In this document: piece by piece, positions 9,378 through 64,000 of the stretch
Layout: each line of letters starts with the position of its first letter
Numbering within the stretch: the stretch's first letter is position 1
Origin: Tupaia tana
Lineage: Eukaryota; Chordata; Mammalia; Scandentia; Tupaiidae
Direction: 5' to 3'
Length of the DNA: 64,000 nt
Assembly (NCBI GenBank): GCA_026018925.1
Contig: JAKSZU010000219.1
Coordinates: forward strand, 62,001-126,000
Made by a program: the position numbers and the translations under genes
Notes under the pieces: model-generated
What the model saw: only the letters and a program-made list of their open reading frames with translations
Databases searched by the model: none
What the model was told of the DNA's origin: nothing

Positions 9378-12300
9378 CTGTCTCTGTGTCTCTGAGGTCT
9401 CTGTCTCTCTCTGCTCCTGTCTCCTCATTTTTTTTGGTAATTTTTCTTTTTACGATTTTTTTAAAGTTAGAATTTCTCTCTGGCTCTCAGCTCCATCTTT
9501 TGTTTTGTTAATAAGCCTTTCTGCTCCTTTCTCCCAGGCAGGAGAGTTGAGCCATTCTCTGAGAAGATTCCACATGCATACTGGGAACTAGATATTTCAG
9601 GGCACAGGCGAAATGAAGATTTTCTACTCATAATTCAGCCTCCAGCAAGCAAAGCTAGTGTGGTAGGGAGCCCCTCTGGCCTTCTATCCCTGTCTCTGTG
9701 TCTCTGAGGTCTCTGTCTCTCTCTGCTCCTGTCTCCTCTTTTTTTTTGGTAATTTGTCCTTTTTACGATTTTTTTAAAGGTAGAATTTCTCTCTGCATCT
9801 CCGCTCCATCTTTTGTTTTGTTAATAAGCCCTTCTGCTCCTTTCTCCCAGGCAGGAGAGTTGAGCCATTCTCTGAGAAGATTCCACATGGATACTGGTAA
9901 CATGATATTTCAGGGCACAGGCGAAATGAAGATTTTCTACTCATAATTCAGCCTCCAGCAAGCAAAGCTAGTGTGATAGGGAGCCCCTCTGGCCTTATAT
10001 CCCTGTCTCTGTGTCTCTGATGTCTCTGTCTCTCTCTGCTCCTGTCTCCTCATTTTCTTGGGTAATTTTTCCTTTTTACGATTTTTTTAAAGGTAGAATT
10101 TCTCTCTGGCTCTCAGCTCCATCTTTTGTTTTGTTAATAAGCCCTTCTGCTCCTTTCTCCCAGGCAGGAGAGTTGAGCCATTCTCTGAGAAGATTCCACA
10201 TGGATACTGGGAACTAGATATTTCAGGGCACAGGCGAAATGAAGATTTTCTACTCATAATTCAGCCTCCAGCAAGCAAAGCTAGTGTGGTAGGGAGCCCC
10301 TCTGGCCTTCTATCCCTGTCTATGTGTCTCTGAGGTCTCTTTCTCTCTCTGCTCCTGTCTCCTCATTTTCTTGGTAATTTTTCCTTTTTACGATTTTTTT
10401 AAAGGTAGAATTTCTCTCTGGTTCTCAGCTCCATCTTTTGTTTTGTTAATAAGCCCTTCTGCTCCTTTCTCCCAGGCAGGAGAGTTGAGCCATTCTCTGA
10501 GAAGTTTCCACATGGATACTGGGAACTAGATATTTCAGGGCACAGGCGAAATGAAGGTTTTCTACTCATAATTCAGCCTCCAGCAAGCAAAGCTAGTGTG
10601 GTAGGGAGCCCCTCTGGGCTTCTATCCCTGTCTCTGTGTCTCTGATGTCTCTGTCTTCCTCTGCTCCTGTCTCCTCTTTTTTTTTGGTAATTTGTACTTT
10701 TAAGATTTTTTTAAAGGTAGAATTTCTCTCTGGCTCTCCGCTCCATCTTTTGTTTTGTTAATAAGCCCTTCTGCTCCTTTCTCCCAGGCAGGAGAGTTGA
10801 GCCCATTCTCTGAGAAGATTCCACATGGATACTGGGAACTAGATATTTCAGGGCACAGGCGAAATGAAGATTTTCTACTCATAATTCAGCCTCCAGCAAG
10901 CAAAGCTAGTGTGGTAGGGAGACCCTCTGGCCTTCTATCCCTGTCTCTGTGTCTCTGAGGTCTCTGTCTCTCTCTGCACCTGTCTCCTCATTTTTTGGGT
11001 AATTTTTCCTTTTTACGATTTTTTTAAAGGTAGAATTTTTCTCTGGCTCTCAGCTCCATCTTTTGTTTTGTTAATAAGCCCTTCTGCTCCTTTCTCCCAG
11101 GCAGGAGAGTTGAGCCATTCTCTGAGAAGATTCCACATGGATACTGGGAACTAGATATTTCAGGGCACAGTCGAAATGAAGATTTTCTACTCATAATTCA
11201 GCCTCCAGCAAGCAAAGCTAGTGTGGTAGGGAGCCCCTCTGGCCTTCTATACCTGTCTCTGTGTCTCTGAGGTCTCTGTCTCTCTCTGCTCCTGTCTCCT
11301 CATTTTTTTGGTAATTTTTCCTTTTTATGATTTTTTTAAAGGTAGAATTTCTCTCTGCCTCTCAGCTCCATCTTTTTGTTTTGATAATAAGACCTTCTGC
11401 TCCTTTCTCCCAGGCAGGAGAGTTGAGCCATTCTCTGAGAAGTTTCCACATGGATACTGGGAACTAGATATTTCAGGGCACAGGCGAAATGAAGATTTTC
11501 TACTCATAATTCAGCCTCCAGCAAGCAAAGCTAGTGTGGTAGGGAGCCCCTCTGGCCTTCTATCCCTGTCTCTGTGTCTCTGAGGTCTCTGTCTCTCTCT
11601 GCTCCTGTCTCCTTTTTTTTTTGGTAATTTTTCCTTTTTACGATTTTTTTAAAGGTAGAATTTCTCTCTGGCTCTCAGGTCCATCTTTTGTTTCGTTAAT
11701 AAGCCCTTCTGCTCCTTTCTCCCAGGCAGGAGAGTTGAGCCATTCTCTGAGAAGATTCCACATGGATACTGGGAACTAGATATTTCAGGTCACAGGCGAA
11801 ATGAAGATTTTCTACTCATAATTCAGCCTCCAGTAAGCAAAGCTAGTGTGGTAGGGAGCCCCGTCTGGCCTTCTATCCCTGTCTCTGTGTCTCTGAGGTC
11901 TCTGTCTCTCTCTGCTACTGTCTCCTCATTTTTTTGGGTAATTTTTCCTTTTTACGATTTTTTTAAAGGTAGAATTTCTCTCTGGCTCTCAGCTCCATCT
12001 TTTGTTTTGTTAATAAGCCCTTCTGCTCCTTTCTCCCAGGCAGGAGAGTTGAGCCATTCTCTGAGAAGATTCCACATGGATACTGGGAACTAGATATTTC
12101 AGGGCACAGGCGAAATGAAGATTTTCTACTCATAATTCAGCCTCCAGCAAGCAAAGCTAGTGTGGTAGGGAGCCCCTCTGGCCTTCTATCCCTGTCTCAG
12201 TGTCTCTGAGGTCTCTGTCTCTCTCTGCTCCTGTCTCCTCATTGTTTTTGGTAATTTTTCTTTTTACGATTTTTTTAAAGGTAGAATTTCTCTCTGGCTC

Positions 12301-15300
12301 TCAGGTCCATCTTTTGTTTTGTTAATAAGCCCTTCTGCTCCTTTCTCCCAGGCAGGAGAGTTGAGCCATTCTCTGAGAAGATTCCACATGGATACTGGGA
12401 ACTAGATATTTCAGGGCACAGGCGAAATGAAGATTTTCTAGTCATATTTCAGCCTCCCAGCAAGCAAAGCTAGTGTGGTAGGGAGCCCCTCTGGCCTTCT
12501 ATACCTGTCTCTGTGTCTCTGAGGTCTCTGTCTCTCTCTGCTCCTTTCTCCTCATTTTTTTGGTAATTTTTCCTTTTTAAGATTTTTTTAAAGGTAGAAT
12601 TTCTCTCTGGCTCTCAGCTCCATCTTTTGTTTTATTAATAAGCCCTTCTGCTCCTTTCTCCCAGGCAGGAGAGTTGAGCCATTCTCTGAGAAGATTCCAC
12701 ATGGATACTGGGGAACCAGCTATTTCAGGGCACAGGCGAAATGAAGATTTTCTACTCATAATTCAGCCTCCAGCAAGCAAAGCTAGTGTGGTAGGGAGCC
12801 CCTCTGGCCTTCTATCCCTGTCTCTGTGTCTCTGAGGTCTCTGTCTCTCTCTGTTCCTGTCTCCTCTTTTTTTTTGGTAATTTTTCCTTTTTACAATTTT
12901 TTTAAAGGTAGAATTTCTCTCTGGCTATCAGCTCCATCTTTTGTTTTGTTAATAAGCCCTTCTGCTCCTTTCTCCCAGGCAGGAGAGTTGAGCCATTCTC
13001 TGAGAAGATTCCACATGGATACTGGTAACTAGATATTTCAGGGCACAGGCGAAATGAAGATTTTCTACTCATAATTCAGCCTCCAGCAAGCAAAGCTAGT
13101 GTGGTAGGGAGCCCCTCTGGCCTTCTATCCCTGTCTCAGTGTCTCTGAGGTCTCTGTCTCTCTCTGCTCCTGTCTCCTCATTTTTTTGGGTAATTTTTCC
13201 TTTTTAAGATTTTTTTAAAGGTAGAATTTCTCTCTGGCTCTCAGCTCCATCTTTCGTTTTGTTAATAAGCCCTTCTGCTCCTTTCTCCCAGGCAGGAGAG
13301 TTGAGCCATTCTCTGAGAAGATTCCACATGGATACTGGGAACCAGATATTTCAGGGGCACAGTCGAAATGAAGATTTTCTACTCATAATTCAGCCTCCAG
13401 CAAGCAAAGCTAGTGTGGTAGGGAGCCCCTCTGTCCTTCTATTCCTGTCTCTGTGTCTCTGAGGTCTCTGTCTCTCTCTGCTCCTGTCTCCTCATTGTTT
13501 TTGGTAATTTTTCCTTTTTATGATTTTTTTAAAGGTAGAATTTCTCTCTGCCTCTCAGCTCCATCTTTTGTTTTGATAATAAGCCCTTCTGCTCCTTTCT
13601 CCCAGGCAGGAGAGTTGAGCCATTCTCTGAGAAGATTCCACATGGATACTGGGAACTAGATATTTCAGGGCATATGCGAAATGAAGATTTTTCTACTCAT
13701 AATTCAGCCTCCCACAAGCAAAGCTAGTGTGGTAGGGAGCCCCTCTGGCCTTCTATCCCTGTCTCTGTGTCTCTGAGGTCTCTGTCTCTCTCTGCTCCTG
13801 TCTCCTCATTTTTTTGGTAATTTTTAGTTTTTACGATTTTTTTAAAGGTAGAATTTCTCTCTGGCTCTCAGGTCCATCTTTTGTTTCGTTAATAAGCCCT
13901 TCTGCTCCTTTCTCCCAGGCAGGAGAGTTGAGCCATTCTCTGAGAAGATTCCACATGGATACTGGGAACTAGATATTTCAGGTCACAGGCGAAATGAAGA
14001 TTTTCTACTCATAATTCAGCCTCCAGCAAGCAAAGCTAGTGTGGTAGGGAGCCCCTCTGGCCTTCTATCCCTGTCTCTGTGTCTCTGAGGTCTCTGTCTC
14101 TCTCTGCTCCTGTCTCCTCATTTTTTTTGGTAATTTTTTCCTTTTTACGATTTTTTTAAAGGTAGAATTTCTCTCTGGCTCTCAGCTCCATCTTTTGTTT
14201 TGTTAATAAGCCCTTCTGCTCCTTTCTCCCAGGCAGGAGAGTTGAGCCATTCTCTGAGAAGATTCCACATGGATACTGAGAACTAGATATTTCAGGGCAC
14301 AGGCGAAATGAAGATTTTCTACTCATAATTCAGCCTCCAGTAAGCAAAGCTAGTGTGGTAGGGAGCCCCTCTGGCCTTCTATCCCTGTCTCTGTGTCTCT
14401 GAGGTCTCTGTCTCTCTCTGCTACTGTCTCCTCATTTTCTTGGGTAATTTTTCCTTTCTACGATTTTTTTAAAGGTAGAATTTCTCTCTGGCTCTCCGCT
14501 CCATCTTTTGTTTTGTTAATAAGCCCTTCTGCTCCTTTCTCTCCAGGCAGGAGAGTTGAGCCATTCTCTGAGAAGATTCCACATGGATACTGGGAACTAG
14601 ATATTTCAGGGCCCAGGCGAAATGAAGATTTTCTACTCATAATTCAGCCTCCAGCAAGCAAAGCTAGTGTGGTAGGGAGCCCCTCTGGCCTTCTATCCCT
14701 GTCTCTGTGTCTCTGAGGTCTCTGTCTCTCTCTGCTCCTGTCTCCTCATTGTTTTTGGTAATTTTTCCTTTTTACGATTTTTTTAAAGGTAGAATTTCTC
14801 TCTGCCTCTCAGCTCCATCTTTTGTTTTGTTAATAAGCCCCTTCTGCTCCTTTCTCCCAGGCAGGAGAGTTGAGCCATTCTCTGAGAAGATTCCACATGG
14901 ATACTGGGAACTAGATATTTCAGGGCACAGGCGAAATGAAGATTTTCTACTCATAATTCAGCCTCCCACAAGCAAAGCTAGTGTGGTAGGGAGCCCCTCT
15001 GGCCTTCTATACCTGTCTCTGTGTCTCTGAGGTCTCTTTCTCTCTCTGCTCCTTTCTCCTCATTTTTTTGGTAATTTTTCCTTTTTACGATTTTTTTAAA
15101 GGTAGAATTTCTCTCTTGGTCTCAGCTCCATCTTTTGTTTTATTAATAAGCCCTTCTGCTCCTTTCTCCCAGGCAGGAGAGTTGAGCCATTCTCTGAGAA
15201 GATTCCACATGGATACTGGGAACTAGCTATTTCAGGGCACAGGTGAAATGAAGATTTTCTACTCATAATTCAGCCTCCAGCAAGCAAAGCTAGTGTGGTA

Positions 15301-46302: not shown

Positions 46303-48489
46303 CTGTCTCTGTGTCTCTAGGGTCTCTGTCTCTCTCTGCTCCTGTCTCCTCATTTTTTTTGGTAATTTTTCCTTTTTACGAATTTTTTAAAGGTACAATT
46401 TCTCTTGCTCTCAGCTCCATCTTTTGTTTTGTTAATAAGCCCTTCTGCTCTTTTCTCCCAGGCAGGAGAGTTGAGCCATTCTCTTAGAAGATTCCACATG
46501 GATACTGGGAACCAGATATTTCAGGGCACAGGCGAAATGAAGATTTTCTACTCATAATTCAGCCTCCAGCAAGCAAAGCTAGTGTGGTAGGGAGCCCCTC
46601 GGGCCTTCTATCCCTGTCTCTGTGTCTCTGAAGTCTCTGTCTCTCTCTGCTCCTGTCTCCTCATTTTTTTTTGGTAATTTTTCTTTTTACGATTTTTTTA
46701 AAGTTAGAATTTCTCTCTGGCTCTCAGCTCCATCTTTTGTTTTGTTAATAAGCCTTTCTGCTCCTTTCTCCCAGGCAGGAGAGTTGAGCCATTCTCTGAG
46801 AAGATTCTACATGGATACTGGGAACTAGATATTTCAGGGCACAGGCGAAATGAAGATTTTCTACTCATAATTCAGCCTCCAGCAAGCAAAGCTAGTGTGG
46901 TAGGGAGCCCCTCTGGCCTTCTATCCCTGTCTCTGTGTCTCTGAGGTCTCTGTCTCTCTCTGCTCCTGTCTCCTCATTTTTTTGGTAATTTTTCCTTTTT
47001 ACGATTTTTTTTAAAGGTATAATTTCTCTCTGGCTCTCAGCTCCATCTTTCATTTTGTTAATAAGCCCTTCTACTCCTTTCTCCCAGGCAGGAGAGTTGA
47101 GCTATTCTCTGAGAAGATTCCACATGGATACTGGGAACAAGATATTTCAGGGCACAGGCGAAATGAAGATTTTATACTCATAATTCAGCCTCCAGCAAGC
47201 AAAGCTAGTGTGGTAGGGAGCCCCTCTAGCCTTCTATCCCTTTCTCTGTGTCTCTGAGGTCTCTGTCTCTCTCTGCTCCTGTCTCCTCATTTTTTTTGGT
47301 AATTTTTCCTTTTTACGATTTTTTTAAAAGTAGAATTTCTCTCTGGCTCTCAGCTCCATCTTTTGTTTTGTTAATAAGCCCTTCTGCTCCTTTCTCCAAT
47401 GCAGGAGAGTTGAGCCATTCTCTGAGAAGATTCCACATGGATACTGGGAACTAGATATTTCAGGGCACAGGCGAAATGAAGATTTTCTACTCATAATTCA
47501 GCCTCCAGCAAGCAAAGCTAGTGTGGTAGGGAGCCCCTCTGGCCTTCTATTCCTGTCTCTGTGTCTCTGAGGTCTCTGTCTCTCTCTGCTCCTGTCTCCT
47601 CATTTTTTTGGTAATTTTTCCTTTTTACGATTTTTTTAAAGGTAGAATTTCTCTCTGGCTCTCAGCTCCATCTTTTGTTTTGTTAATAAGCCCTTCTGCT
47701 CCTTTCTCCCAGGCAGGAGAGTTGAGCCATTCTCTGAGAAGCTTCCACATGGATACTGGGAACTAAATATTTCAGGGCACAGGCGAAATGAACATTTTCT
47801 ACTCATAATTCAGCCTCCAGCAAGCAAAGCTACTGTGGTAGGGAGCCCCTCTGGCCTTCTATCCCTGTCTCTGTGTGTCTGAGGTCTCTGTCTCTCTCTG
47901 CTCCTGTCTCCTCATTTTTTTTGGTAATTTTTCCTTTTTACGATTTTTTTAAAAGTAGAATTTCTCTCTGGCTCTCAGCTCCATCTTTTGTTTTGTTAAT
48001 AAGCCCTTCTGCTCCTTTCTCCCAGGCAGGAGAGTTGAGCCATTCTCTGAGAAGATTCCACATGGATACTGGGAACAAGATATTTCAGGGCACAGGCGAA
48101 ATGAAGATTTTCTACTCATAATTCAGCCTCCAGCAAGCAAAGCTAGTGTGGTAGGGAGCGCCTCTGGCCTTCTATCCCTGTCTCTGTGTCTCTGAGGTCT
48201 CTTTCTCTCTCTGCTCCTGTCTCCTCATTTTTTTGGTAATTTTTCCTTTTTACGATTTTTTTAAAGGTAGAATTTCTCTCTGGCTCTCAGCTCCATCTTT
48301 TGTTTTGTTAATAAGCCCTTCTGCTCCTTTCTCCCAGGCAGGAGAGTTGAGCCATTCTCTGGGAAGATTCCACATGGATACTGGGAACTAGATATTTCAG
48401 GGCACAGGCGAAATGAAGATTTTCTACTCATATTTCAGCCTCCAGCAAGCAAAGCTAGTGTGGTAGGGAACCCCTCTGGCCTTCTATCC
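46303..48489 (+). repeat. 7-monomer HOR unit (members f-k plus an l/e chimera)
   Basis: Starts are 46303, 46614, 46927, 47240, 47553, 47865 and 48178; length is 2187 bp. Marks: f, CTAGGGTCTC and the 2-bp-shorter CTCTTGCTCTC; g, GAAGTC, AAAGTTAG, GCCTTTCTG and GATTCTAC; h, GTATAATTTC, CTTTCATTTTG, GAGCTATTC and TTTATACTC; i, CCCTTTCTCTG and CTCCAATGCAGG; j, GAAGCTTCC, CTAAATATTT and GAACATTTT; k, AAAAGTAG and GAACAAG. The seventh member is chimeric and returns the series to f. Confidence 0.9.
48178..48489 (+). repeat. Chimeric l/e monomer that shortens the 12-mer to a 7-mer
   Basis: The 5' part is type l (CTCTTTCTC and CATTTTTTTGGTAAT) as at 50364 and 53183. The 3' part is type e (TCTGGGAAG with G at 48362, CATATTTC, GGGAACCCC) as at 45989 and 54749. 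The switch lies between 48237 and 48362. Fusing l to e removes a, b, c, d and one of the two parents' equivalents, five monomers net, and 12 minus 5 is the observed 7. Confidence 0.88.
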
Positions 48490-50675
48490 CTGTCTCTGTG
48501 TCTCTAGGGTCTCTGTCTCTCTCTGCTCCTGTCTCCTCATTTTTTTTGGTAATTTTTCCTTTTTACGATTTTTTTAAAGGTAGAATTTCTCTTGCTCTCA
48601 GCTCCATCTTTTGTTTTGTTAATAAGCCCTTCTGCTCTTTTCTCCCAGGCAGGAGAGTTGAGCCATTCTCTTAGAAGATTCCACATGGATACTGGGAACC
48701 AGATATTTCAGGGCACAGGCGAAATGAAGATTTTCTACTCATAATTCAGCCTCCAGCAAGCAAAGCTAGTGTGGTAGGGAGCCCCTCGGGCCTTCTATCC
48801 CTGTCTCTGTGTCTCTGAAGTCTCTGTCTCTCTCTGCTCCTGTCTCCTCATTTTTTTTTGGTAATTTTTCTTTTTACGATTTTTTTAAAGTTAGAATTTC
48901 TCTCTGGCTCTCAGCTCCATCTTTTGTTTTGTTAATAAGCCTTTCTGCTCCTTTCTCCCAGGCAGGAGAGTTGAGCCATTCTCTGAGAAGATTCTACATG
49001 GATACTGGGAACTAGATATTTCAGGGCACAGGCGAAATGAAGATTTTCTACTCATAATTCAGCCTCCAGCAAGCAAAGCTAGTGTGGTAGGGAGCCCCTC
49101 TGGCCTTCTATCCCTGTCTCTGTGTCTCTGAGGTCTCTGTCTCTCTCTGCTCCTGTCTCCTCATTTTTTTGGTAATTTTTCCTTTTTACGATTTTTTTAA
49201 AGGTATAATTTCTCTCTGGCTCTCAGCTCCATCTTTCATTTTGTTAATAAGCCCTTCTACTCCTTTCTCCCAGGCAGGAGAGTTGAGCTATTCTCTGAGA
49301 AGATTCCACATGGATACTGGGAACAAGATATTTCAGGGCACAGGCGAAATGAAGATTTTATACTCATAATTCAGCCTCCAGCAAGCAAAGCTAGTGTGGT
49401 AGGGAGCCCCTCTAGCCTTCTATCCCTTTCTCTGTGTCTCTGAGGTCTCTGTCTCTCTCTGCTCCTGTCTCCTCATTTTTTTTGGTAATTTTTCCTTTTT
49501 ACGATTTTTTTAAAAGTAGAATTTCTCTCTGGCTCTCAGCTCCATCTTTTGTTTTGTTAATAAGCCCTTCTGCTCCTTTCTCCAATGCAGGAGAGTTGAG
49601 CCATTCTCTGAGAAGATTCCACATGGATACTGGGAACTAGATATTTCAGGGCACAGGCGAAATGAAGATTTTCTACTCATAATTCAGCCTCCAGCAAGCA
49701 AAGCTAGTGTGGTAGGGAGCCCCTCTGGCCTTCTATTCCTGTCTCTGTGTCTCTGAGGTCTCTGTCTCTCTCTGCTCCTGTCTCCTCATTTTTTTGGTAA
49801 TTTTTCCTTTTTACGATTTTTTTAAAGGTAGAATTTCTCTCTGGCTCTCAGCTCCATCTTTTGTTTTGTTAATAAGCCCTTCTGCTCCTTTCTCCCAGGC
49901 AGGAGAGTTGAGCCATTCTCTGAGAAGCTTCCACATGGATACTGGGAACTAAATATTTCAGGGCACAGGCGAAATGAACATTTTCTACTCATAATTCAGC
50001 CTCCAGCAAGCAAAGCTAGTGTGGTAGGGAGCCCCTCTGGCCTTCTATCCCTGTCTCTGTGTGTCTGAGGTCTCTGTCTCTCTCTGCTCCTGTCTCCTCA
50101 TTTTTTTTGGTAATTTTTCCTTTTTACGATTTTTTTAAAAGTAGAATTTCTCTCTGGCTCTCAGCTCCATCTTTTGTTTTGTTAATAAGCCCTTCTGCTC
50201 CTTTCTCCCAGGCAGGAGAGTTGAGCCATTCTCTGAGAAGATTCCACATGGATACTGGGAACAAGATATTTCAGGGCACAGGCGAAATGAAGATTTTCTA
50301 CTCATAATTCAGCCTCCAGCAAGCAAAGCTAGTGTGGTAGGGAGCGCCTCTGGCCTTCTATCCCTGTCTCTGTGTCTCTGAGGTCTCTTTCTCTCTCTGC
50401 TCCTGTCTCCTCATTTTTTTGGTAATTTTTCCTTTTTACGATTTTTTTAAAGGTAGAATTTCTCTCTGGCTCTCAGCTCCATCTTTTGTTTTGTTAATAA
50501 GCCCTTCTGCTCCTTTCTCCAAGGCAGGAGAGTTGAGCCATTCTCTGAGAAGATTCCACATGGATACTGGGAACTAGATATTTCAGGGCACAGGCGAAAT
50601 GAAGATTTTCTACTCATAATTCAGCCTCCAGCAAGCAAAGCTAGTGTGGTAGGGAGCACCTCTGGCCTTCTATCC
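48490..50675 (+). repeat. Second 7-monomer unit (members f-l with an intact l)
   Basis: Starts are 48490, 48801, 49114, 49426, 49739, 50051 and 50364; length is 2186 bp. The first six match 46303-48177 closely; the f copies at 46303 and 48490 share the rare CTCTTAGAAG. The last member is a complete l (CTCTTTCTC with CTCCAAGGCAG and GAGCACCTC), so the series continues to member a at 50676. The f copy here has GATTTTTTTAAAGGTAGAA in place of GAATTTTTTAAAGGTACAA, which suggests local conversion to consensus. Confidence 0.9.
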
Positions 50676-53494
50676 CTGTCTCTGTGTCTCTGAGGTCTCT
50701 GTCTCTCTCTGCTCCTGTCTCCTCATTTTCTTGGTTAATTTTTCCTTTTTACGATTTTTTTAAAGGTAGAATTTCTCTCTGGCTATCAGCTCCATCTTTT
50801 GTTTTGTTAATAAGCCCTTCTGCTCCTTTCTCCAAGGCAGGAGAGTTGAGCCATTCTCTGAGAAGATTCCACATGGATACTGGGAACTAGATATTTCAGG
50901 GCACAGGCGAAATGAAGATTTTCTACTCATAATTAAGCCTCCAGCAAGCAAAGCTAGTCTGGTAGGGAGCCCCTCTGGCCTTCTATCCCTGTCTCTGTGT
51001 CTCTGAGGTCTATTTCTCTCTCTGCTCCTGTCTCCTCATTTTTTTTTGGTTATTTTTCCTTTTTACGATTTTTTTAAAGGTAGAGTTTCTCTCTGGCTCT
51101 CAGCTCCATCTTTTGTTTTGTTAATAAGCCCTTCTGCTCCTTTCTCCCAGGCAGGAGAGTTGAGCCATTCTCTGAGAAGATTCCACATGGATACTGGGAA
51201 CTAGATATTTCAGGGCACAGGCGAAATGAAGATTTTCTACTCATAATTCAGCCTCCAGCAAGCAAAGCTAGTGTGGTAGGGAGCCCCTCTGGCCTTCTAT
51301 CCCTGTCTCTGTGTCTCTGAGGTCTCTGACTCTCTCTGCTCCTGTCTCCACATTTTCTTGGGTAATTGTTCCTTTTTACGATTTTTTTAAAGGTAGAATT
51401 TCTCTCTGGCTCTCAGCTCCATCTTTTGTTTTGTTAATAAGCCCTTCTGCTCCTTTCTCCCAGGCAGAAGAGTTGAGCCATTCTCTGAGAAGATTCCACA
51501 TGGATACTTGGAACTAGATATTTCAGGGCACAGGCGAAATGAAGATTTTCTACTCATAATTCAGCCTCCAGCAAGCAAAGCTAGTGTGGTAGGGAGCCCC
51601 TCTGGCCTTCTATCCCTGTCTCTGTGTCTCTGAGGTCTCTGTCTCTCTCTACTCCTGTCTCCTCATATTTTTTTGGTTATTTTTCATTTTTACGATTTTT
51701 TTAAAGGTAGAGTTTCTCTCTGGCTCTCAGCTCCATCTTTTGTTTTGTTAATAAGCCCTTCTGCTCCTTTCTCCCAGGCAGGAGAGTTGAGCCCTTCTCT
51801 GAGAAGATTCCACATGGATACTGGGAACTAGATATTTCAGGGCACAGGCGAAATGAAGAATTTCTACTCATAATTCAGCCTCCAGCAAGCAAAGCTAGTG
51901 TGGTAGGGAGCCCCTCTGGCCTTCTATCCCTGTCTCTGTGTCTCTGAGTTCTCTGTCTCTCTCTGCTCCTGTCTCCTCATTTTTCTTTTGGAAATTTTTC
52001 CTTTTTACGATTTTTTTAAAGGTAGAATTTCTCTCTGGCTCTCAGCTCCATCTTTTGTTTTGTTAATAAGCCCTTCTGCTCCTTTCTCCCAGGCAGGAGA
52101 GTTGAGCCATTCTCTGGGAAGATTCCACATGGATACTGGGAACTAGATATTTCAGGGCACAGGCGAAATGTAGATTTTCTACTCATATTTCAGCCTCCAG
52201 CAAGCAAAGCTAGTGTGGTAGGGAACCCCTCTGGCCTTCTATCCCTGTCTCTGTGTCTCTAGGGTCTCTGTCTCTCTCTGCTCCTGTCTCCTCATTTTTT
52301 TTGGTAATTTTTCCTTTTTACGAATTTTTTAAAGGTACAATTTCTCTTGCTCTCAGCTCCATCTTTTGTTTTGTTAATAAGCCCTTCTGCTCTTTTCTCC
52401 CAGGCAGGAGAGTTGAACCATTCTCTGAGAAGATTCCACATGGATACTGGGAACCAGATATTTCAGGGCACAGGCGAAATGAAGATTTTCTACTCATAAT
52501 TCAGCCTCCAGCAAGCAAAGCTAGTGTGGTAGGGAGCCCCTCGGGCCTTCTATCCCTGTCTCTGTGTCTCTGAAGTCTCTGTCTCTCTCTGCTCCTGTCT
52601 CCTCATTTTTTTTTGGTAATTTTTCTTTTTACGATTTTTTTAAAGTTAGAATTTCTCTCTGGCTCTCAGCTCCATCTTTTGTTTTGTTAATAAGCCTTTC
52701 TGCTCCTTTCTCCCAGGCAGGAGAGTTGAGCCATTCTCTGAGAAGCTTCCACATGGATACTGGGAAATAAATATTTCAGGGCACAGGCGAAATGAACATT
52801 TTCTACTCATAATTCAGCCTCCAGCAAGCAAAGCTACTGTGGTAGGGAGCCCCTCTGGCCTTCTATCCCTGTCTCTGTGTGTCTGAGGTCTCTGTCTCTC
52901 TCTGCTCCTGTCTCCTCATTTTTTTTTGGTAATTTTTCCTTTTTACGATTTTTTTAAAAGTAGAATTTCTCTCTGGCTCTCAGCTCCATCTTTTGTTTTG
53001 TTAATAAGCCCTTCTGCTCCTTTCTCCCAGGCAGGAGAGTTGAGCCATTCTCTGAGAAGATTCCACATGGATACTGGGAACAAGATATTTCAGGGCACAG
53101 GCGAAATGAAGATTTTCTACTCATAATTCAGCCTCCAGCAAGCAAAGCTAGTGTGGTAGGGAGCCCCTCTGGCCTTCTATCCCTGTCTCTGTGTCTCTGA
53201 GGTCTCTTTCTCTCTCTGCTCCTGTCTCCTCATTTTTTTGGTAATTTTTCCTTTTTACGATTTTTTTAAAGGTAGAATTTCTCTCTGGCTCTCAGCTCCA
53301 TCTTTTGTTTTGTTAATAAGCCCTTCTGCTCCTTTCTCCAAGGCAGGAGAGTTGAGCCATTCTCTGAGAAGATTCCACATGGATACTGGGAACTAGATAT
53401 TTCAGGGCACAGGCGAAATGAAGATTTTCTACTCATAATTCAGCCTCCAGCAAGCAAAGCTAGTGTGGTAGGGAGCACCTCTGGCCTTCTATCC
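50676..53494 (+). repeat. 9-monomer HOR unit (a-f, g/j chimera, k, l)
   Basis: Starts are 50676, 50989, 51303, 51616, 51930, 52245, 52556, 52869 and 53183; length is 2819 bp. It matches the 12-mer that follows almost base for base except that h, i and the outer parts of g and j are missing. Member a has CTTGGTTAATT, GGCTATCAG, CTCCAAGGC and AATTAAGCC; member b has GAGGTCTATTTC, TTGGTTATTTTTCC and GTAGAGTTTC. Confidence 0.92.
52556..52868 (+). repeat. Chimeric g/j monomer that shortens the 12-mer to a 9-mer
   Basis: The 5' part is type g (GAAGTC, AAAGTTAG, GCCTTTCTG with T at 52697). The 3' part is type j (GAAGCTTCC with C at 52746, AATAAATATTT, GAACATTTT, CTACTGTGG). The switch lies in the 49 bp between those sites, where the parents are identical. 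The next monomer is k, as expected. Three monomers are lost, which equals 12 minus 9. Confidence 0.93.
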
Positions 53495-56400
53495 CTGTCT
53501 CTGTGTCTCTGAGGTCTCTGTCTCTCTCTGCTCCTGTCTCCTCATTTTCTTGGTTAATTTTTCCTTTTTACGATTTTTTTAAAGGTAGAATTTCTCTCTG
53601 GCTATCAGCTCCATCTTTTGTTTTGTTAATAAGCCCTTCTGCTCCTTTCTCCAAGGCAGGAGAGTTGAGCCATTCTCTGAGAAGATTCCACATGGATACT
53701 GGGAACTAGATATTTCAGGGCACAGGCGAAATGAAGATTTTCTACTCATAATTAAGCCTCCAGCAAGCAAAGCTAGTGTGGTAGGGAGCCCCTCTGGCCT
53801 TCTATCCCTGTCTCTGTGTCTCTGAGGTCTATTTCTCTCTCTGCTCCTGTCTCCTCATTTTTTTTTGGTTATTTTTCCTTTTTACGATTTTTTTAAAGGT
53901 AGAGTTTCTCTCTGGCTCTCAGCTCCATCTTTTGTTTTGTTAATAAGCCCTTCTGCTCCTTTCTCCCAGGCAGGAGAGTTGAGCCATTCTCTGAGAAGAT
54001 TCCACATGGATACTGGGAACTAGATATTTCAGGGCACAGGCGAAATGAAGATTTTCTACTCATAATTCAGCCTCCAGCAAGCAAAGCTAGTGTGGTAGGG
54101 AGCCCCTCTGGCCTTCTATCCCTGTCTCTGTGTCTCTGAGGTCTCTGTCTCTCTCTGCTCCTGTCTCCACATTTTCTTGGGTAATTGTTCCTTTTTACGA
54201 TTTTTTTAAAGGTAGAATTTCTCTCTGGCTCTCAGCTCCATCTTTTGTTTTGTTAATAAGCCCTTCTGCTTCTTTCTCCCAGGCAGAAGAGTTGAGCCAT
54301 TCTCTGAGAAGATTCCACATGGATACTTGGAACTAGATATTTCAGGGCACAGGCGAAATGAAGATTTTCTACTCATAATTCAGCCTCCAGCAAGCAAAGC
54401 TAGTGTGGTAGGGAGCCCCTCTGGCCTTCTATCCCTGTCTCTGTGTCTCTGAGGTCTCTGTCTCTCTCTACTCCTGTCTCCTCATATTTTTTTGGTTATT
54501 TTTCATTTTTACGATTTTTTTAAAGGTAGAGTTTCTCTCTGGCTCTCAGCTCCATCTTTTGTTTTGTTAATAAGCCCTTCTGCTCCTTTCTCCCAGGCAG
54601 GAGAGTTGAGCCCTTCTCTGAGAAGATTCCACATGGATACTGGGAACTAGATATTTCAGGGCACAGGCGAAATGAAGAATTTCTACTCATAATTCAGCCT
54701 CCAGCAAGCAAAGCTAGTGTGGTAGGGAGCCCCTCTGGCCTTCTATCCCTGTCTCTGTGTCTCTGAGTTCTCTGTCTCTCTCTGCTCCTGTCTCCTCATT
54801 TTTCTTTTGGAAATTTTTCCTTTTTACGATTTTTTTAAAGGTAGAATTTCTCTCTGGCTCTCAGCTCCATCTTTTGTTTTGTTAATAAGCCCTTCTGCTC
54901 CTTTCTCCCAGGCAGGAGAGTTGAGCCATTCTCTGGGAAGATTCCACATGGATACTGGGAACTAGATATTTCAGGGCACAGGCGAAATGTAGATTTTCTA
55001 CTCATATTTCAGCCTCCAGCAAGCAAAGCTAGTGTGGTAGGGAACCCCTCTGGCCTTCTATCCCTGTCTCTGTGTCTCTAGGGTCTCTGTCTCTCTCTGC
55101 TCCTGTCTCCTCATTTTTTTTGGTAATTTTTCCTTTTTACGAATTTTTTAAAGGTACAATTTCTCTTGCTCTCAGCTCCATCTTTTGTTTTGTTAATAAG
55201 CCCTTCTGCTCTTTTCTCCCAGGCAGGAGAGTTGAGCCATTCTCTGAGAAGATTCCACATGGATACTGGGAACCAGATATTTCAGGGCACAGGCGAAATG
55301 AAGATTTTCTACTCATAATTCAGCCTCCAGCAAGCAAAGCTAGTGTGGTAGGGAGCCCCTCGGGCCTTCTATCCCTGTCTCTGTGTCTCTGAAGTCTCTG
55401 TCTCTCTCTGCTCCTGTCTCCTCATTTTTTTTTGGTAATTTTTCTTTTTACGATTTTTTTAAAGTTAGAATTTCTCTCTGGCTCTCAGCTCCATCTTTTG
55501 TTTTGTTAATAAGCCTTTCTGCTCCTTTCTCCCAGGCAGGAGAGTTGAGCCATTCTCTGAGAAGATTCTACATGGATACTGGGAACTAGATATTTCAGGG
55601 CACAGGCGAAATGAAGATTTTCTACTCATAATTCAGCCTCCAGCAAGCAAAGCTAGTGTGGTAGGGAGCCCCTCTGGCCTTCTATCCCTGTCTCTGTGTC
55701 TCTGAGGTCTCTGTCTCTCTCTGCTCCTGTCTCCTCATTTTTTTGGTAATTTTTCCTTTTTACGATTTTTTTAAAGGTATAATTTCTCTCTGGCTCTCAG
55801 CTCCATCTTTCATTTTGTTAATAAGCCCTTCTACTCCTTTCTCCCAGGCAGGAGAGTTGAGCTATTCTCTGAGAAGATTCCACATGGATACTGGGAACAA
55901 GATATTTCAGGGCACAGGCGAAATGAAGATTTTATACTCATAATTCAGCCTCCAGCAAGCAAAGCTAGTGTGGTAGGGAGCCCCTCTAGCCTTCTATCCC
56001 TTTCTCTGTGTCTCTGAGGTCTCTGTCTCTCTCTGCTCCTGTCTCCTCAGTTTTTTTGGTAATTTTTCCTTTTTACGATTTTTTTAAAAGTAGAATTTCT
56101 CTCTGGCTCTCAGCTCCATCTTTTGTTTTGTTAATAAGCCCTTCTGCTCCTTTCTCCAATGCAGGAGAGTTGAGCCATTCTCTGAGAAGATTCCACATGG
56201 ATACTGGGAACTAGATATTTCAGGGCACAGGCGAAATGAAGATTTTCTACTCATAATTCAGCCTCCAGCAAGCAAAGCTAGTGTGGTAGGGAGCCCCTCT
56301 GGCCTTCTATCCCTGTCTCTGTGTCTCTGAGGTCTCTGTCTCTCTCTGCTCCTGTCTCCTCATTTTTTTGGTAATTTTTCCTTTTTACGATTTTTTTAAA

Positions 56401-57250
56401 GGTAGAATTTCTCTCTGGCTCTCAGCTCCATCTTTTGTTTTGTTAATAAGCCCTTCTGCTCCTTTCTCCCAGGCAGGAGAGTTGAGCCATTCTCTGAGAA
56501 GCTTCCACATGGATACTGGGAACTAGATATTTCAGGGCACAGGCGAAATGAAGATTTTCTACTCATAATTCAGCCTCCAGCAAGCAAAGCTACTGTGGTA
56601 GGGAGCCCCTCTGGCCTTCTATCCCTGTCTCTGTGTCTCTGAGGTCTCTGTCTCTCTCTGCTCCTGTCTCCTCATTTTTTTTTGGTAATTTTTCCTTTTT
56701 ACGATTTTTTTAAAAGTAGAATTTCTCTCTGGCTCTCAGCTCCATCTTTTGTTTTGTTAATAAGCCCTTCTGCTCCTTTCTCCCAGGCAGGAGAGTTGAG
56801 CCATTCTCTGAGAAGATTCCACATGGATACTGGGAACAAGATATTTCAGGGCACAGGCGAAATGAAGATTTTCTACTCATAATTCAGCCTCCAGCAAGCA
56901 AAGCTAGTGTGGTAGGGAGCCCCTCTGGCCTTCTATCCCTGTCTCTGTGTCTCTGAGGTCTCTTTCTCTCTCTGCTCCTGTCTCCTCATTTTTTTGGTAA
57001 TTTTTCCTTTTTACGATTTTTTTAAAGGTAGAATTTCTCTCTGGCTCTCAGCTCCATCTTTTGTTTTGTTAATAAGCCCTTCTGCTCCTTTCTCCAAGGC
57101 AGGAGAGTTGAGCCATTCTCTGAGAAGATTCCACATGGATACTGGGAACTAGATATTTCAGGGCACAGGCGAAATGAAGATTTTCTACTCATAATTCAGC
57201 CTCCAGCAAGCAAAGCTAGTGTGGTAGGGAGCACCTCTGGCCTTCTATCC
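53495..57250 (+). repeat. Complete 12-monomer HOR unit (members a-l)
   Basis: Starts are 53495, 53808, 54122, 54435, 54749, 55064, 55375, 55688, 56000, 56313, 56625 and 56939; length is 3756 bp. It is the only complete a-l series in the window and the reference for the derivatives on either side. Member a returns at 57251 with its full set of marks. In this copy j (56313) keeps GAAGCTTCC and CTACTGTGG but has consensus CTAGATATTT and GAAGATTTT, unlike the j copies at 47553 and 49739. Confidence 0.93.
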
Positions 57251-59130
57251 CTGTCTCTGTGTCTCTGAGGTCTCTGTCTCTCTCTGCTCCTGTCTCCTCA
57301 TTTTCTTGGTTAATTTTTCCTTTTTACGATTTTTTTAAAGGTAGAATTTCTCTCTGGCTATCAGCTCCATCTTTTGTTTTGTTAATAAGCCCTTCTGCTC
57401 CTTTCTCCAAGGCAGGAGAGTTGAGCCATTCTCTGAGAAGATTCCACATGGATACTGGGAACTAGATATTTCAGGGCACAGGCGAAATGAAGATTTTCTA
57501 CTCATAATTAAGCCTCCAGCAAGCAAAGCTAGTGTGGTAGGGAGCCCCTCTGGCCTTCTATCCCTGTCTCTGTGTCTCTGAGGTCTATTTCTCTCTCTGC
57601 TCCTGTCTCCTCATTTTTTTTTGGTTATTTTTCCTTTTTACGATTTTTTTAAAGGTAGAATTTCTCTCTGGCTCTCAGCTCCATCTTTTGTTTTGTTAAT
57701 AAGCCCTTCTGCTCCTTTCTCCCAGGCAGGAGAGTTGAGCCATTCTCTGAGAAGATTCCACATGGATACTGGGAACTAGATATTTCAGGGCACAGGCGAA
57801 ATGAAGATTTTCTACTCATAATTCAGCCTCCAGCAAGCAAAGCTAGTGTGGTAGGGAGCCCCTCTGGCCTTCTATCCCTGTCTCTGTGTCTCTGAGGTCT
57901 CTGTCTCTCTCTGCTCCTGTCTCCACATTTTCTTGGGTAATTGTTCCTTTTTACGATTTTTTTAAAGGTAGAATTTCTCTCTGGCTCTCAGCTCCATCTT
58001 TTGTTTTGTTAATAAGCCCTTCTGCTCCTTTCTCCCAGGCAGAAGAGTTGAGCCATTCTCTGAGAAGATTCCACATGGATACTTGGAACTAGATATTTCA
58101 GGGCACAGGCGAAATGAAGATTTTCTACTCATAATTCAGCCTCCAGCAAGCAAAGCTAGTGTGGTAGGGAGCCCCTCTGGCCTTCTATCCCTGTCTCTGT
58201 GTCTCTGAGGTCTCTGTCTCTCTCTACTCCTGTCTCCTCATATTTTTTTGGTTATTTTTCATTTTTACGATTTTTTTAAAGGTAGAGTTTCTCTCTGGCT
58301 CTCAGCTCCATCTTTTGTTTTGTTAATAAGCCCTTCTGCTCCTTTCTCCCAGGCAGGAGAGTTGAGCCCTTCTCTGAGAAGATTCCACATGGATACTGGG
58401 AACTAGATATTTCAGGGCACAGGCGAAATGAAGAATTTCTACTCATAATTCAGCCTCCAGCAAGCAAAGCTAGTGTGGTAGGGAGCCCCTCTGGCCTTCT
58501 ATCCCTGTCTCTGTGTCTCTGAGTTCTCTGTCTCTCTCTGCTCCTGTCTCCTCATTTTTCTTTTGGAAATTTTTCCTTTTTACGATTTTTTTAAAGGTAG
58601 AATTTCTCTCTGGCTCTCAGCTCCATCTTTTGTTTTGTTAATAAGCCCTTCTGCTCCTTTCTCCCAGGCAGGAGAGTTGAGCCATTCTCTGGGAAGATTC
58701 CACATGGATACTGGGAACTAGATATTTCAGGGCACAGGCGAAATGTAGATTTTCTACTCATATTTCAGCCTCCAGCAAGCAAAGCTAGTGTGGTAGGGAA
58801 CCCCTCTGGCCTTCTATCCCTGTCTCTGTGTCTCTAGGGTCTCTGTCTCTCTCTGCTCCTGTCTCCTCATTTTTTTTGGTAATTTTTCCTTTTTACGAAT
58901 TTTTTAAAGGTACAATTTCTCTTGCTCTCAGCTCCATCTTTTGTTTTGTTAATAAGCCCTTCTGCTCTTTTCTCCCAGGCAGGAGAGTTGAGCCATTCTC
59001 TGAGAAGATTCCACATGGATACTGGGAACCAGATATTTCAGGGCACAGGCGAAATGAAGATTTTCTACTCATAATTCAGCCTCCAGCAAGCAAAGCTAGT
59101 GTGGTAGGGAGCCCCTCGGGCCTTCTATCC
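57251..59130 (+). repeat. Partial 12-mer unit (members a-f)
   Basis: Starts are 57251, 57564, 57878, 58191, 58505 and 58820. They match 53495-55374 at an offset of 3756 bp. A visible difference is in b (57564), which has the consensus GTAGAATTTC in place of GTAGAGTTTC. The series breaks at 59131, where a clean member g is expected. Confidence 0.92.
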
Positions 59131-59756
59131 CTGTCTCTGTGTCTCTGAAGTCTATTTCTCTCTCTGCTCCTGTCTCCTCATTTTTTTTTGGTAATTTTTC
59201 CTTTTTACGATTTTTTTAAAGTTAGAGTTTCTCTCTGGCTCTCAGCTCCATCTTTTGTTTTGTTAATAAGCCCTTCTGCTCCTTTCTCCCAGGCAGGAGA
59301 GTTGAGCCATTCTCTGAGAAGATTCTACATGGATACTGGGAACTAGATATTTCAGGGCACAGGCGAAATGAAGATTTTCTACTCATAATTCAGCCTCCAG
59401 CAAGCAAAGCTAGTGTGGTAGGGAGCCCCTCTGGCCTTCTATCCCTGTCTCTGTGTCTCTGAGGTCTCTGTCTCTCTCTGCTCCTGTCTCCTCATTTTTT
59501 TGGTAATTTTTCCTTTTTACGATTTTTTTAAAGGTAGAATTTCTCTCTGGCTCTCAGCTCCATCTTTCATTTTGTTAATAAGCCCTTCTACTCCTTTCTC
59601 CCAGGCAGAAGAGTTGAGCCATTCTCTGAGAAGTTTCCACATGGATACTTGGAACTAGATATTTCAGGGCACAGGCGAAATGAAGATTTTATACTCATAA
59701 TTCAGCCTCCAGCAAGCAAAGCTAGTGTGGTAGGGAGCCCCTCTAGCCTTCTATCC
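59131..59756 (+). repeat. Two mosaic monomers (g with b, then h with c)
   Basis: The monomer at 59131 alternates between g and b marks along its first 200 bp: GAAGTC (g), TATTTC (b), GGTAATT (g), TTTTTCC (b), AAAGTTAG (g), AGTTTC (b), CCCTTCTG (b), GATTCTAC (g). The monomer at 59445 alternates between h and c: GTAGAA (c-compatible), CTTTCATTTTG and CTACTCC (h), GGCAGAAGAG and TACTTGGAAC (c), TTTATACTC and CTCTAGCC (h). Member d follows at 59757, as it should after c. A simple crossover gives one switch, not many. Patchy conversion, or a consensus of two collapsed copies, would explain it. Confidence 0.85.
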
Positions 59757-61948
59757 CTGTCTCTGTGTCTCTGAGGTCTCTGTCTCTCTCTACTCCTGTC
59801 TCCTCATATTTTTTTGGTTATTTTTCATTTTTACGATTTTTTTAAAGGTAGAGTTTCTCTCTGGCTCTCAGCTCCATCTTTTGTTTTGTTAATAAGCCCT
59901 TCTGCTCCTTTCTCCCAGGCAGGAGAGTTGAGCCCTTCTCTGAGAAGATTCCACATGGATACTGGGAACTAGATATTTCAGGGCACAGGCGAAATGAAGA
60001 TTTTCTACTCATAATTCAGCCTCCAGCAAGCAAAGCTAGTGTGGTAGGGAGCCCCTCTGGCCTTCTATCCCTGTCTCTGTGTCTCTGAGGTCTCTGTCTC
60101 TCTCTGCTCCTGTCTCCTCATTTTTTTGGGTAATTTTTCCTTTTTACGATTTTTTTAAAGGTAGAATTTCTCTCTGGCTCTCAGCTCCATCTTTTGTTTT
60201 GTTAATAAGCCCATTTGCTCCTTTCTCCCAGGCAGGAGAATTGAGCCATTCTCTGAGAAGATTCCACATGGATACTGGGAACTAGATATTTCAGGGCACA
60301 GGCGAAATGAAGATTTTCTACTCATAATTCAGCCTACAGGAAGCAAAGCTAGTGTGGTAGGGAGGCCCTCTGGCCTCCTGTCCCTGTCTCTGTGTCTCTG
60401 AGGTCTCTGTCTCTCTCTGCTCCTGTCTCCTCATTTTTTTTGGTAATTTTTCTTTTTACGATTTTTTTAAAGGTAGAATTTCTCTCTGGCTCTCAGCTCC
60501 ATCTTTTGTTTTGTTAATAAGCACTTCTGCTCCTTTCTCCCAGGCAGGAGAGTTGAGCCATTCTCTGAGAAGATTCCACATGGATACTTGGAACTAGATA
60601 TTTCAGGGCACAGGCGAAATGAAGATTTTCTACTCATAATTCAGCCTCCAGCAAGCAAAGGTAGTGTGGTAGGGAGCCCCTCTGGCCTTCTATCCCTGTC
60701 TCTGTGTCTCTGAGATCTCTGTCTCTCTCTGCTCCTGTCTCCTAATTTTTTTTGGTAATTTTTCCTTTTTACGATTTTTTTAAAGGTAGAATTTCTCTCT
60801 GGCTCTCAGCTCCATCTTTTGTTTTGTTAATAATCCCTTCTGCTCCTTTCTCCCAGGCAGGAGAGTTGAGCCATTTTCTGGGAAGATTCCACATGGATAC
60901 TGGGAACTAGATATTTCAGGGCACAGGCGAAATGAAGATTTTCTACTCATAATTCAGCCTCCAGCAAGCAAAGCTAGTGTGGTAGGGAGCCCCTCTGGCC
61001 TTCTATCCCTGTCTCTGTGTCTCTGAGTTCTCTGTCTCTCTCTGCTCCTGTCTCCTCATTTTTCTTTTGGAAATTTTTCCTTTTTACGATTTTTTTAAAG
61101 GTAGAATTTCTCTCTGGCTCTCAGCTCCATCTTTTGTTTTGTTAATAAGCCCTTCTGCTCCTTTCTCCCAGGCAGGAGAGTTGAGCCATTCTCTGGGAAG
61201 ATTCCACATGGATACTGGGAACTAGATATTTCAGGGCACAGGCGAAATGAAGATTTTCTACTCATAATTCAGCCTCCAGCAAGCAAAGCTAGTGTGGTAG
61301 GGAGCCCCTCTGGCCTTCTATTCCTGTCTCTGTGTCTCTGAGGTCTCTGTCTCTCTCTGCTCCTGTCTCCTCATTTTTTTTGGTAATTTTTCCTTTTTAC
61401 GATTTTTTTAAAGGTAGAATTTCTCTCTGGCTCTCAGCTCCATCTTTTGTTTTGTTAATAAGCCCTTCTGCTCCTTTCTCCCAGGCAGGAGAGTTGAGCC
61501 ATTCACTGAGAAGATTCCACATGGATATGGGAACTAGATATTTCAGGGCACAGGAGAAATGAAGATTTTCTACTCATAATTCAGCCTCCAGCAAGCAAAG
61601 CTAGTGTGGTAGGGAGCCCCTCTGGCCTTCTATCCCTGTCTCTGTGTCTCTGAGGTCTCTGTCTCTCTCTGCTCCTGTCTCCTCATTTTTTTGGGTAATT
61701 TTTCCTTTTTACGATTTTTTTAAAGGTAGAATTTCTCTCTGGCTCTCAGCTCCATCTTTTGTTTTGTTAATAAGCCCATTTGCTCCTTTCTCCCAGGCAG
61801 GAGAATTGAGCCATTCTCTGAGAAGATTCCACATGGATACTGGGAACTAGATATTTCAGGGCACAGGCGAAATGAAGATTTTCTACTCATAATTCAGCCT
61901 CCAGCAAGCAAAGCTAGTGTGGTAGGGAGCCCCTCTGGCCTTCTATCC
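59757..61948 (+). repeat. New 7-monomer HOR, first copy
   Basis: Starts are 59757, 60071, 60384, 60696, 61009, 61324 and 61636; length is 2192 bp. It contains member d (59757) and an e-like member (61009, with CTTTTGGAAATTTTT and TCTGGGAAG but without CATATTTC) with five other types between and after: CCCATTTGC with GAGAATTG (60071 and 61636); AAGCACTTCTG with TACTTGG (60384); GAGATC with TAATCCCTTC (60696); and CATTCACTGAG with GATATGGG (61324). These types are absent from the 12-mer. Confidence 0.92.
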
Positions 61949-64000
61949 CTGTCTCTGTGTCTCTGAGGTCTCTGTCTCTCTCTACTCCTGTCTCCTCATA
62001 TTTTTTTGGTTATTTTTCATTTTTACGATTTTTTTAAAGGTAGAGTTTCTCTCTGGCTCTCAGCTCCATCTTTTGTTTTGTTAATAAGCCCTTCTGCTCC
62101 TTTCTCCCAGGCAGGAGAGTTGAGCCCTTCTCTGAGAAGATTCCACATGGATACTGGGAACTAGATATTTCAGGGCACAGGCGAAATGAAGATTTTCTAC
62201 TCATAATTCAGCCTCCAGCAAGCAAAGCTAGTGTGGTAGGGAGCCCCTCTGGCCTTCTATCCCTGTCTCTGTGTCTCTGAGGTCTCTGTCTCTCTCTGCT
62301 CCTGTCTCCTCATTTTTTTGGGTAATTTTTCCTTTTTACGATTTTTTTAAAGGTAGAATTTCTCTCTGGCTCTCAGCTCCATCTTTTGTTTTGTTAATAA
62401 GCCCATTTGCTCCTTTCTCCCAGGCAGGAGAATTGAGCCATTCTCTGAGAAGATTCCACATGGATACTGGGAACTAGATATTTCAGGGCACAGGCGAAAT
62501 GAAGATTTTCTACTCATAATTCAGCCTACAGGAAGCAAAGCTAGTGTGGTAGGGAGGCCCTCTGGCCTCCTGTCCCTGTCTCTGTGTCTCTGAGGTCTCT
62601 GTCTCTCTCTGCTCCTGTCTCCTCATTTTTTTTGGTAATTTTTCTTTTTACGATTTTTTTAAAGGTAGAATTTCTCTCTGGCTCTCAGCTCCATCTTTTG
62701 TTTTGTTAATAAGCACTTCTGCTCCTTTCTCCCAGGCAGGAGAGTTGAGCCATTCTCTGAGAAGATTCCACATGGATACTTGGAACTAGATATTTCAGGG
62801 CACAGGCGAAATGAAGATTTTCTACTCATAATTCAGCCTCCAGCAAGCAAAGGTAGTGTGGTAGGGAGCCCCTCTGGCCTTCTATCCCTGTCTCTGTGTC
62901 TCTGAGATCTCTGTCTCTCTCTGCTCCTGTCTCCTAATTTTTTTTGGTAATTTTTCCTTTTTACGATTTTTTTAAAGGTAGAATTTCTCTCTGGCTCTCA
63001 GCTCCATCTTTTGTTTTGTTAATAATCCCTTCTGCTCCTTTCTCCCAGGCAGGAGAGTTGAGCCATTTTCTGGGAAGATTCCACATGGATACTGGGAACT
63101 AGATATTTCAGGGCACAGGCGAAATGAAGATTTTCTACTCATAATTCAGCCTCCAGCAAGCAAAGCTAGTGTGGTAGGGAGCCCCTCTGGCCTTCTATCC
63201 CTGTCTCTGTGTCTCTGAGTTCTCTGTCTCTCTCTGCTCCTGTCTCCTCATTTTTCTTTTGGAAATTTTTCCTTTTTACGATTTTTTTAAAGGTAGAATT
63301 TCTCTCTGGCTCTCAGCTCCATCTTTTGTTTTGTTAATAAGCCCTTCTGCTCCTTTCTCCCAGGCAGGAGAGTTGAGCCATTCTCTGGGAAGATTCCACA
63401 TGGATACTGGGAACTAGATATTTCAGGGCACAGGCGAAATGAAGATTTTCTACTCATAATTCAGCCTCCAGCAAGCAAAGCTAGTGTGGTAGGGAGCCCC
63501 TCTGGCCTTCTATTCCTGTCTCTGTGTCTCTGAGGTCTCTGTCTCTCTCTGCTCCTGTCTCCTCATTTTTTTTGGTAATTTTTCCTTTTTACGATTTTTT
63601 TAAAGGTAGAATTTCTCTCTGGCTCTCAGCTCCATCTTTTGTTTTGTTAATAAGCCCTTCTGCTCCTTTCTCCCAGGCAGGAGAGTTGAGCCATTCACTG
63701 AGAAGATTCCACATGGATATGGGAACTAGATATTTCAGGGCACAGGAGAAATGAAGATTTTCTACTCATAATTCAGCCTCCAGCAAGCAAAGCTAGTGTG
63801 GTAGGGAGCCCCTCTGGCCTTCTATCCCTGTCTCTGTGTCTCTGAGGTCTCTGTCTCTCTCTGCTCCTGTCTCCTCATTTTTTTGGGTAATTTTTCCTTT
63901 TTACGATTTTTTTAAAGGTAGAATTTCTCTCTGGCTCTCAGCTCCATCTTTTGTTTTGTTAATAAGCCCATTTGCTCCTTTCTCCCAGGCAGGAGAATTG
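61949..64000 (+). repeat. New 7-monomer HOR, second copy, cut by the window end
   Basis: Starts are 61949, 62263, 62576, 62888, 63201, 63516 and 63828, the last being partial (173 bp). Comparing by eye against 59757 onward at an offset of 2192 bp, I found no difference over the members checked, including rare marks such as CTACAGGAAGC with GAGGCCC and CTCCTGTCCC. This is the least diverged HOR pair in the window, so its amplification is the most recent, or the assembly duplicated it. Confidence 0.92.

Follow-up and report, generated by a model that had tools for sequence, protein, structure and literature searches.

Two successive monomers of a tandem satellite, m190 and m191, interleave alleles of two pairs of neighboring monomers, A-B and H-I, and this composite pair lies where one register of the higher-order unit gives way to another. 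We give an even chance to the explanation that the seam m190-191 arose in a single event of misaligned (non-allelic) homologous recombination, resolved in patches or by template switching.

The satellite array and its higher-order units

The window analyzed here is a stretch of 64,000 bases (C330:62001-126000) from the 316,619-bp contig C330, in an assembly of 2.95 Gb and 1198 contigs; features whose coordinates are written as start..end are on the plus strand, and positions are counted from the start of the window unless preceded by C330. The entire window is occupied by one tandem satellite with a period of 313 bp, from which 204 whole monomers (m1-m204) were cut. Monomer anchors extend from base 98 to base 316,429 of the contig, and the contig-wide set comprises 1009 retained monomers, with two broken spans. 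Monomer length is broken at C330:152753-153253 and C330:212060-212579, with spans of 205 and 520 bp; the 205-bp broken span is followed by a 296-bp span at C330:152958. Among the matches listed, related monomers are present on many other contigs. The satellite shows strong strand asymmetry: over sixteen 4-kb steps across 1-64000, the GC skew ranges from -0.107 to -0.129 and the AT skew from -0.287 to -0.318.

The monomer of alpha satellite is ~171 bp long; with a period of 313 bp, the present satellite does not belong in that class. The region 57001-64000 had no match in Rfam, a conserved 42-mer of the satellite produced zero exact matches in a prokaryote collection, and a literature search for a 313-bp satellite yielded no paper attributable to the family in this window.

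Left of the seam, monomer alignment delineates a 12-monomer higher-order unit, denoted A..L (m178-m189; 55375..59130), which differs from its copy m157-168 by 0-3 positions per monomer and thus conforms to the definition of a HOR, that is, diverged monomers in a multi-monomer unit that is repeated near-identically. Near the seam, this 12-mer is accompanied by derivatives of 9, 8 and 7 monomers. For this unit type, near-identical copies of m186-m192, with the mosaic pair taken out, occur among the 1009 monomers only between m131 and m199. Right of the seam (m192-m204; 59757..63827), monomer identity defines a unit of seven monomers, m192-198, followed by a second copy of which six are present: m199-204 are exactly the same as m192-197, so that six of the seven monomers are repeated. 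The next monomer, m205, located beyond the window, again resembles the second monomer of the unit, with 2 differences; therefore, the '7-mer' represents a local duplication in two copies rather than a new array. Accordingly, the first-pass annotation, which put the composite pair at the point where the 12-mer yields to a new 7-mer, was right about the place, with m189 ending the 12-mer and m192 starting the 7-monomer unit, but overstated the novelty of the latter.

Two monomers alternating between two registers

Informative sites were defined by comparing the A-B pair m178-179 (55375..55999; copies at 46614-47239 and 48801-49425) with the H-I pair m164-165 (50989..51615; copies m173-174 and m185-186), using a three-way alignment and a per-consensus feature table, which gave 24 sites in total. 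Two indels of the A-type monomers, a T-run insertion and a C deletion, were scored as indels, and T-run length was excluded from the switch counts.

Monomer m190 (59131..59444; 314 bp) is a mosaic of A-type and H-type alleles, with 6 switches over 9 informative sites: A at 59149; H at 59154 and 59156; A at 59193; H at 59200; A at 59222; H at 59227 and 59273; and A at 59326. Monomer m191 (59445..59756; 312 bp) is a mosaic of B-type and I-type alleles, with 4 switches over 15 informative sites: B at five sites in 59471-59509 (the first of which is informative solely through a variant private to m165); I at 59537; B at 59568, 59569 and 59590; I at 59609, 59620, 59650 and 59656; and B at 59691 and 59745. 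Position 59634 of m191 matches neither parent. With this alignment, no additional donor needs to be invoked for any part of m190. The change to the J register falls between 59745 and 59759 and adds one switch to the internal ten.

When only derived (non-consensus) alleles are counted, with m164-165 as the H-I parent, 6 of the 10 internal switches are retained, 4 in m190 and 2 in m191. If m185-186, the H-I copy that lies nearest, is taken as the parent, 4 are retained, 2 in each monomer, because m185 lacks the 59227 allele. These counts bear out the earlier claims of at least five switches between types g and b in 59131-59444 and of several between h and c in 59445-59756; the parents indeed are consecutive pairs, with b,c corresponding to A,B and g,h to H,I, and the two interleaved HOR registers are the same as those of the flanks.

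The mosaic is poorly described by a small number of breakpoints: 8 sites remain discordant under the best single breakpoint, 5 under three breakpoints and 3 under five, and eleven are required to accommodate every site. Thus, m190 and m191 resemble hybrid monomers in length, at 314 and 312 bp, but not in the arrangement of left and right parts around one breakpoint. At sites 59149 and 59154, separated by only 5 bp, all four gametes (G-C, A-C, G-A and A-A) are found; therefore, point mutation alone is an uneconomical explanation.

The left flank, m189 (58820..59130), is a pure L monomer that is identical to m131 and m177; the right flank, m192 (59757..60070), is a J monomer that lacks the A at 60001 and is identical to m137, m147 and m199. 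Given that m189 and m192 exactly match existing copies, little mutation appears to have occurred since the seam was formed. L is the monomer that precedes A-B, and J is the one that follows H-I; the seam is a 7-monomer register jump with the interleaved pair inside. Site 60001 in m192 is the sole exception to the purity of register in m188-189 and m192. The seam thus combines discontinuous tracts from two parents with exchanged flanks, as expected of a complex crossover with patchy heteroduplex repair.

Tests against chance and of site order

The pair m190-191 carries 14 derived alleles. One register accounts for at most 8 of them and two registers for 13. Among the 19,900 pairs of registers that the window offers, only 6 account for 13 of the 14, all of them A-B by H-I combinations; when the whole contig was scanned, the best pair was again m150-151 with m164-165, with one site unexplained. 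Allowing two registers instead of one parent reduces the mismatches from 11 to 1, a gain that is exceeded by 4 and equalled by 7 of the 203 monomer pairs. The nearest relatives of m190 among the 1009 monomers of the contig are H and A copies, and those of m191 are B copies.

Several of the alleles involved are rare: in consensus positions, 24A is present in 4, 302A in 4, 126A in 5 and 248A in 6 of the 1009 monomers, compared to 75 for 26T and 65 for 191T. The 31-mer that links the A-type allele at 59149 to the H-type allele at 59154 occurs once in the 2.95-Gb assembly; the pure H-type counterpart has 18 exact occurrences on 7 contigs, with 3 of the 18 in C330. Related words from m190-191 that were tried in the contig each occur there once.

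The order of the sites, with 11 runs in 24 (P = 0.31), resembles random choice at each site, which argues against continuous conversion tracts. GC-biased mismatch repair is the usual mammalian signature, with 68% GC retention as the yardstick. At the AT/GC sites of m190-191, the GC allele was kept in 5 of 19 cases with m164-165 as the parent (P = 0.0002 against this yardstick) and in 4 of 18 with m185-186. This result argues against GC-biased patchy repair, the direction being opposite to that given for humans in the part of PMC4404656 on complex crossovers, where the corresponding value is 74%.

Other junctions in the contig

Most junctions between registers are simpler. The control junctions include m155 (48178..48489), a clean F|K hybrid with one derived switch, and m169 (52556..52868), a clean A|D hybrid with one switch that creates a 9-mer. 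In the recent part of the array, junctions J1-J6 have one derived switch each, compared to 7 at the m190-191 seam. When all sites are included, J1-J6 show 8, 7, 9, 3, 3 and 1 switches in 45, 46, 50, 42, 52 and 49 sites, respectively, and the m190-191 seam shows 12 in 59; this narrows the gap, and therefore, the contrast rests on derived alleles, with less power at the control junctions because the registers there differ by 4-10 per monomer, vs 12 at m190-191. The L monomer m139 (43174-43484) carries the m191 alleles 147A and 191T (consensus positions) and lacks two right-hand L alleles.

We also compiled a catalogue of 96 junctions across the contig, requiring that both tracts comprise at least 2 monomers and that each register have at least 5 derived alleles. 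No discordant derived allele was detected at 74 of these, one at 13, and two or more at 9. The discordant derived alleles number 9 at m42 (in the m38-43 seam; 14 switches), 4 at m277, 3 at m237 (7 switches), 3 at m286 (5 switches) and 3 at m654. The catalogue rated the m190 seam clean, because the 7-mer had been taken as the register on its right; when H-I is used instead, over m188-m193, this seam has 5 discordant derived alleles, or 15 discordant sites if consensus states are included, in part because m193 belongs to neither register. At the m237 junction (C330 ~135470-136521; 73470-74521 on the window scale), the 7 derived switches and 3 discordant alleles are spread over ~1 kb. Of the 1008 monomer pairs scanned as blocks, 59 had at least 4 derived alleles per parent; 44 of the 59 show a single switch and 6 show five or more. 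These six multi-switch blocks are three overlapping pairs at m40-43 and the blocks at m190-191, m286-287 and m807. The m807 block was set aside for its poor fit, with 15 sites from neither parent.

The second interleaved seam in the window, m38-m43 (11566..13444), alternates between the registers +8 (m46-51) and +15 (m53-58), which are seven monomers apart, as at m190-191. It has 35 switches in 72 sites, or 15 in 28 when only derived alleles are counted, and 9 sites come from neither parent. Among the derived alleles of the flanks, those of m36-37 are shared with +15 only and those of m44-46 with +8 only, apart from some that derive from neither. Here too, the site order is that of random choice (P = 0.45); the GC allele was kept at 20 of 41 sites, and the six monomers contain 4 singletons (counted within the window). 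A weaker interleaved seam, m286-288, lies outside the window (C330 ~151187-152125) and involves the registers +9 and -9: m280-285, except for m282, follow +9, and m289-290 follow -9. Across m285-288, there are 15 switches in 56 sites and 5 in 27 derived ones, and the mixed zone of derived alleles is only 137 bp long. The three seams are alike in shape, with one register, then a mixed zone, then the other register.

Most of the well-marked seams in the contig look like single-breakpoint exchanges, and m190-191 looks like a member of the patchily resolved minority. Tentatively, the register jumps in one array might fall into two modes, which we consider possible but doubtful: mostly clean single breakpoints and a minority that is interleaved nearly site by site, with no GC bias, over a zone that extends from some hundreds of bases to nearly 2 kb. 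If real, the two modes would suggest that a separate pathway resolves misaligned satellite repeats, for which unrepaired heteroduplex that is fixed randomly and rapid template switching would be the candidates.

Possible origins of the interleaved seam

Misaligned recombination with patchy resolution would account for the seven-monomer jump and the mixture together. A strand with ...K-L-A-B would pair with an H-I-J copy that is offset by seven monomers, yielding L-[A/H]-[B/I]-J, with the two templates alternating within ~600 bp. The flanks, the parental registers and the interleaving are direct observations; we infer a single event, in which the mismatches of the heteroduplex would have been repaired one at a time or the invading strand would have repeatedly switched template; the allele at 59634 calls for a third source or a mutation. 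The first-pass annotation had offered two readings, heteroduplex repaired in patches and a consensus drawn from two collapsed copies, and is supported in part. Its register logic holds up, with L-A-B on the left and H-I-J on the right as the parents and flanks that are pure except at 60001; the signature of GC-biased repair is not seen (5 of 19), and the artefact reading is weakened by the observations that follow.

An artefact of consensus or assembly, which we consider rather unlikely, would imply that real copies or haplotypes L-A-B-J and L-H-I-J were merged, with alleles drawn from both. Mixing site by site predicts both the random-like order seen here and at m38-43 (P = 0.31 and 0.45) and the lack of GC favoring; the 31-mer spanning the first A and H alleles occurs once in the assembly and so is not corroborated by another copy; and mixed zones between pure flanks are what a wrong overlap would leave. 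However, the recent part of the array has few singletons (3 in the 15,024 bp of m157-204), suggestive of good base quality, and the distinct flanks are within one monomer on each side, so that long reads, if such were used, would be expected to span the 626 bp together with these flanks; a collapse limited to two monomers probably would need reads that share both. Moreover, the T at 59634 is found in neither parent; the m38-43 seam, which has its own singletons (4 in the six monomers) and 9 alleles that neither parent carries, therefore is not a plain blend of copies in the window; and an error would have to be selective, given that 74 of the 96 junctions lack a discordant derived allele. Should the interleaved seams prove to be consensus errors, they would provide a useful test for errors in satellite assembly.

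In an alternative, stepwise history, a clean junction would have been overwritten later by separate short conversions, some of them from third monomers. For the alpha satellite D1Z5, the section of PMC2853522 on domain boundaries describes conversion superimposed on unequal exchange, and potential donors are plentiful, considering that H-like sequence is not confined to C330 (7 contigs share the 18 exact 31-mers, of which C330 has 3). The presence of two m191 alleles (consensus 147 and 191) in m139 (43174-43484), the 5 sites from neither register at the m139 junction (J3), and the occurrence of the 59634 T allele in 65 of the 1009 contig monomers are also compatible with such a history. Nevertheless, the two flanking registers by themselves supply 13 of the 14 derived alleles, and m188-189 and m192 are free of overwriting by the opposite register; we regard stepwise overwriting as unlikely.

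Finally, point mutation and shared ancestral states could imitate alternation in this 313-bp family, whose monomers differ pairwise by ~11. Consensus states make up 11 of the 24 informative sites, some derived alleles turn up on several different backgrounds, and other junctions have up to 9 all-site switches, but such a coincidence is most improbable in view of the six derived-only switches, the four gametes within 5 bp, and the fit of just 6 of the 19,900 register pairs.

Comparison with known recombination junctions

The route by which satellites change register is disputed, with unequal crossover, conversion and break-induced replication all invoked. Seams are fossil breakpoints, and a catalogue from one contig, in which 74 of the 96 junctions lack discordant derived alleles and few are densely interleaved, allows the repair route to be addressed seam by seam.

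In the titles and abstract openings of the literature searched, we found no description of a seam at which two registers interleave on the scale of monomers, which is no claim of its absence from print. In the HORs of alpha satellite, hybrid monomers, in which part of one monomer is fused to part of another, are abundant, according to the passages of PMC9549924 that deal with them. Like these, m190-191 combines two monomer sources, keeps the monomer length and is associated with HOR structural variants; unlike these, it switches ten times over two successive monomers and belongs to a 313-bp rather than a 171-bp family. The alphoid D1Z5 arrays have domain boundaries with an intermediate subset that has been interpreted as the result of unequal crossover and conversion (PMC2853522). 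The m190-191 seam shares with them the boundary with an intermediate form and this type of explanation; the D1Z5 description, in contrast, is given per HOR copy, and its section 5 contains no monomer-scale alternation of two registers.

In human meiosis, complex crossovers and patchy non-crossovers with discontinuous tracts have been described, and patchy GC-biased repair or repeated template switching was proposed, in the sections of PMC4404656 on such events. The discontinuous tracts near a crossover are a common feature; those human events, however, are allelic and GC-biased, whereas m190-191 is out of register and GC was not favored. The model of HOR evolution by break-induced replication, as outlined in the relevant part of PMC8997354, includes out-of-register re-invasion and template switching in satellites; the similarity to m190-191 would lie in the out-of-register template switching, which that model puts forward for nested HOR structure. 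Hybrid monomers and conversion-associated crossovers thus are known already, and m190-191 represents a familiar type of satellite junction in a densely interleaved form.
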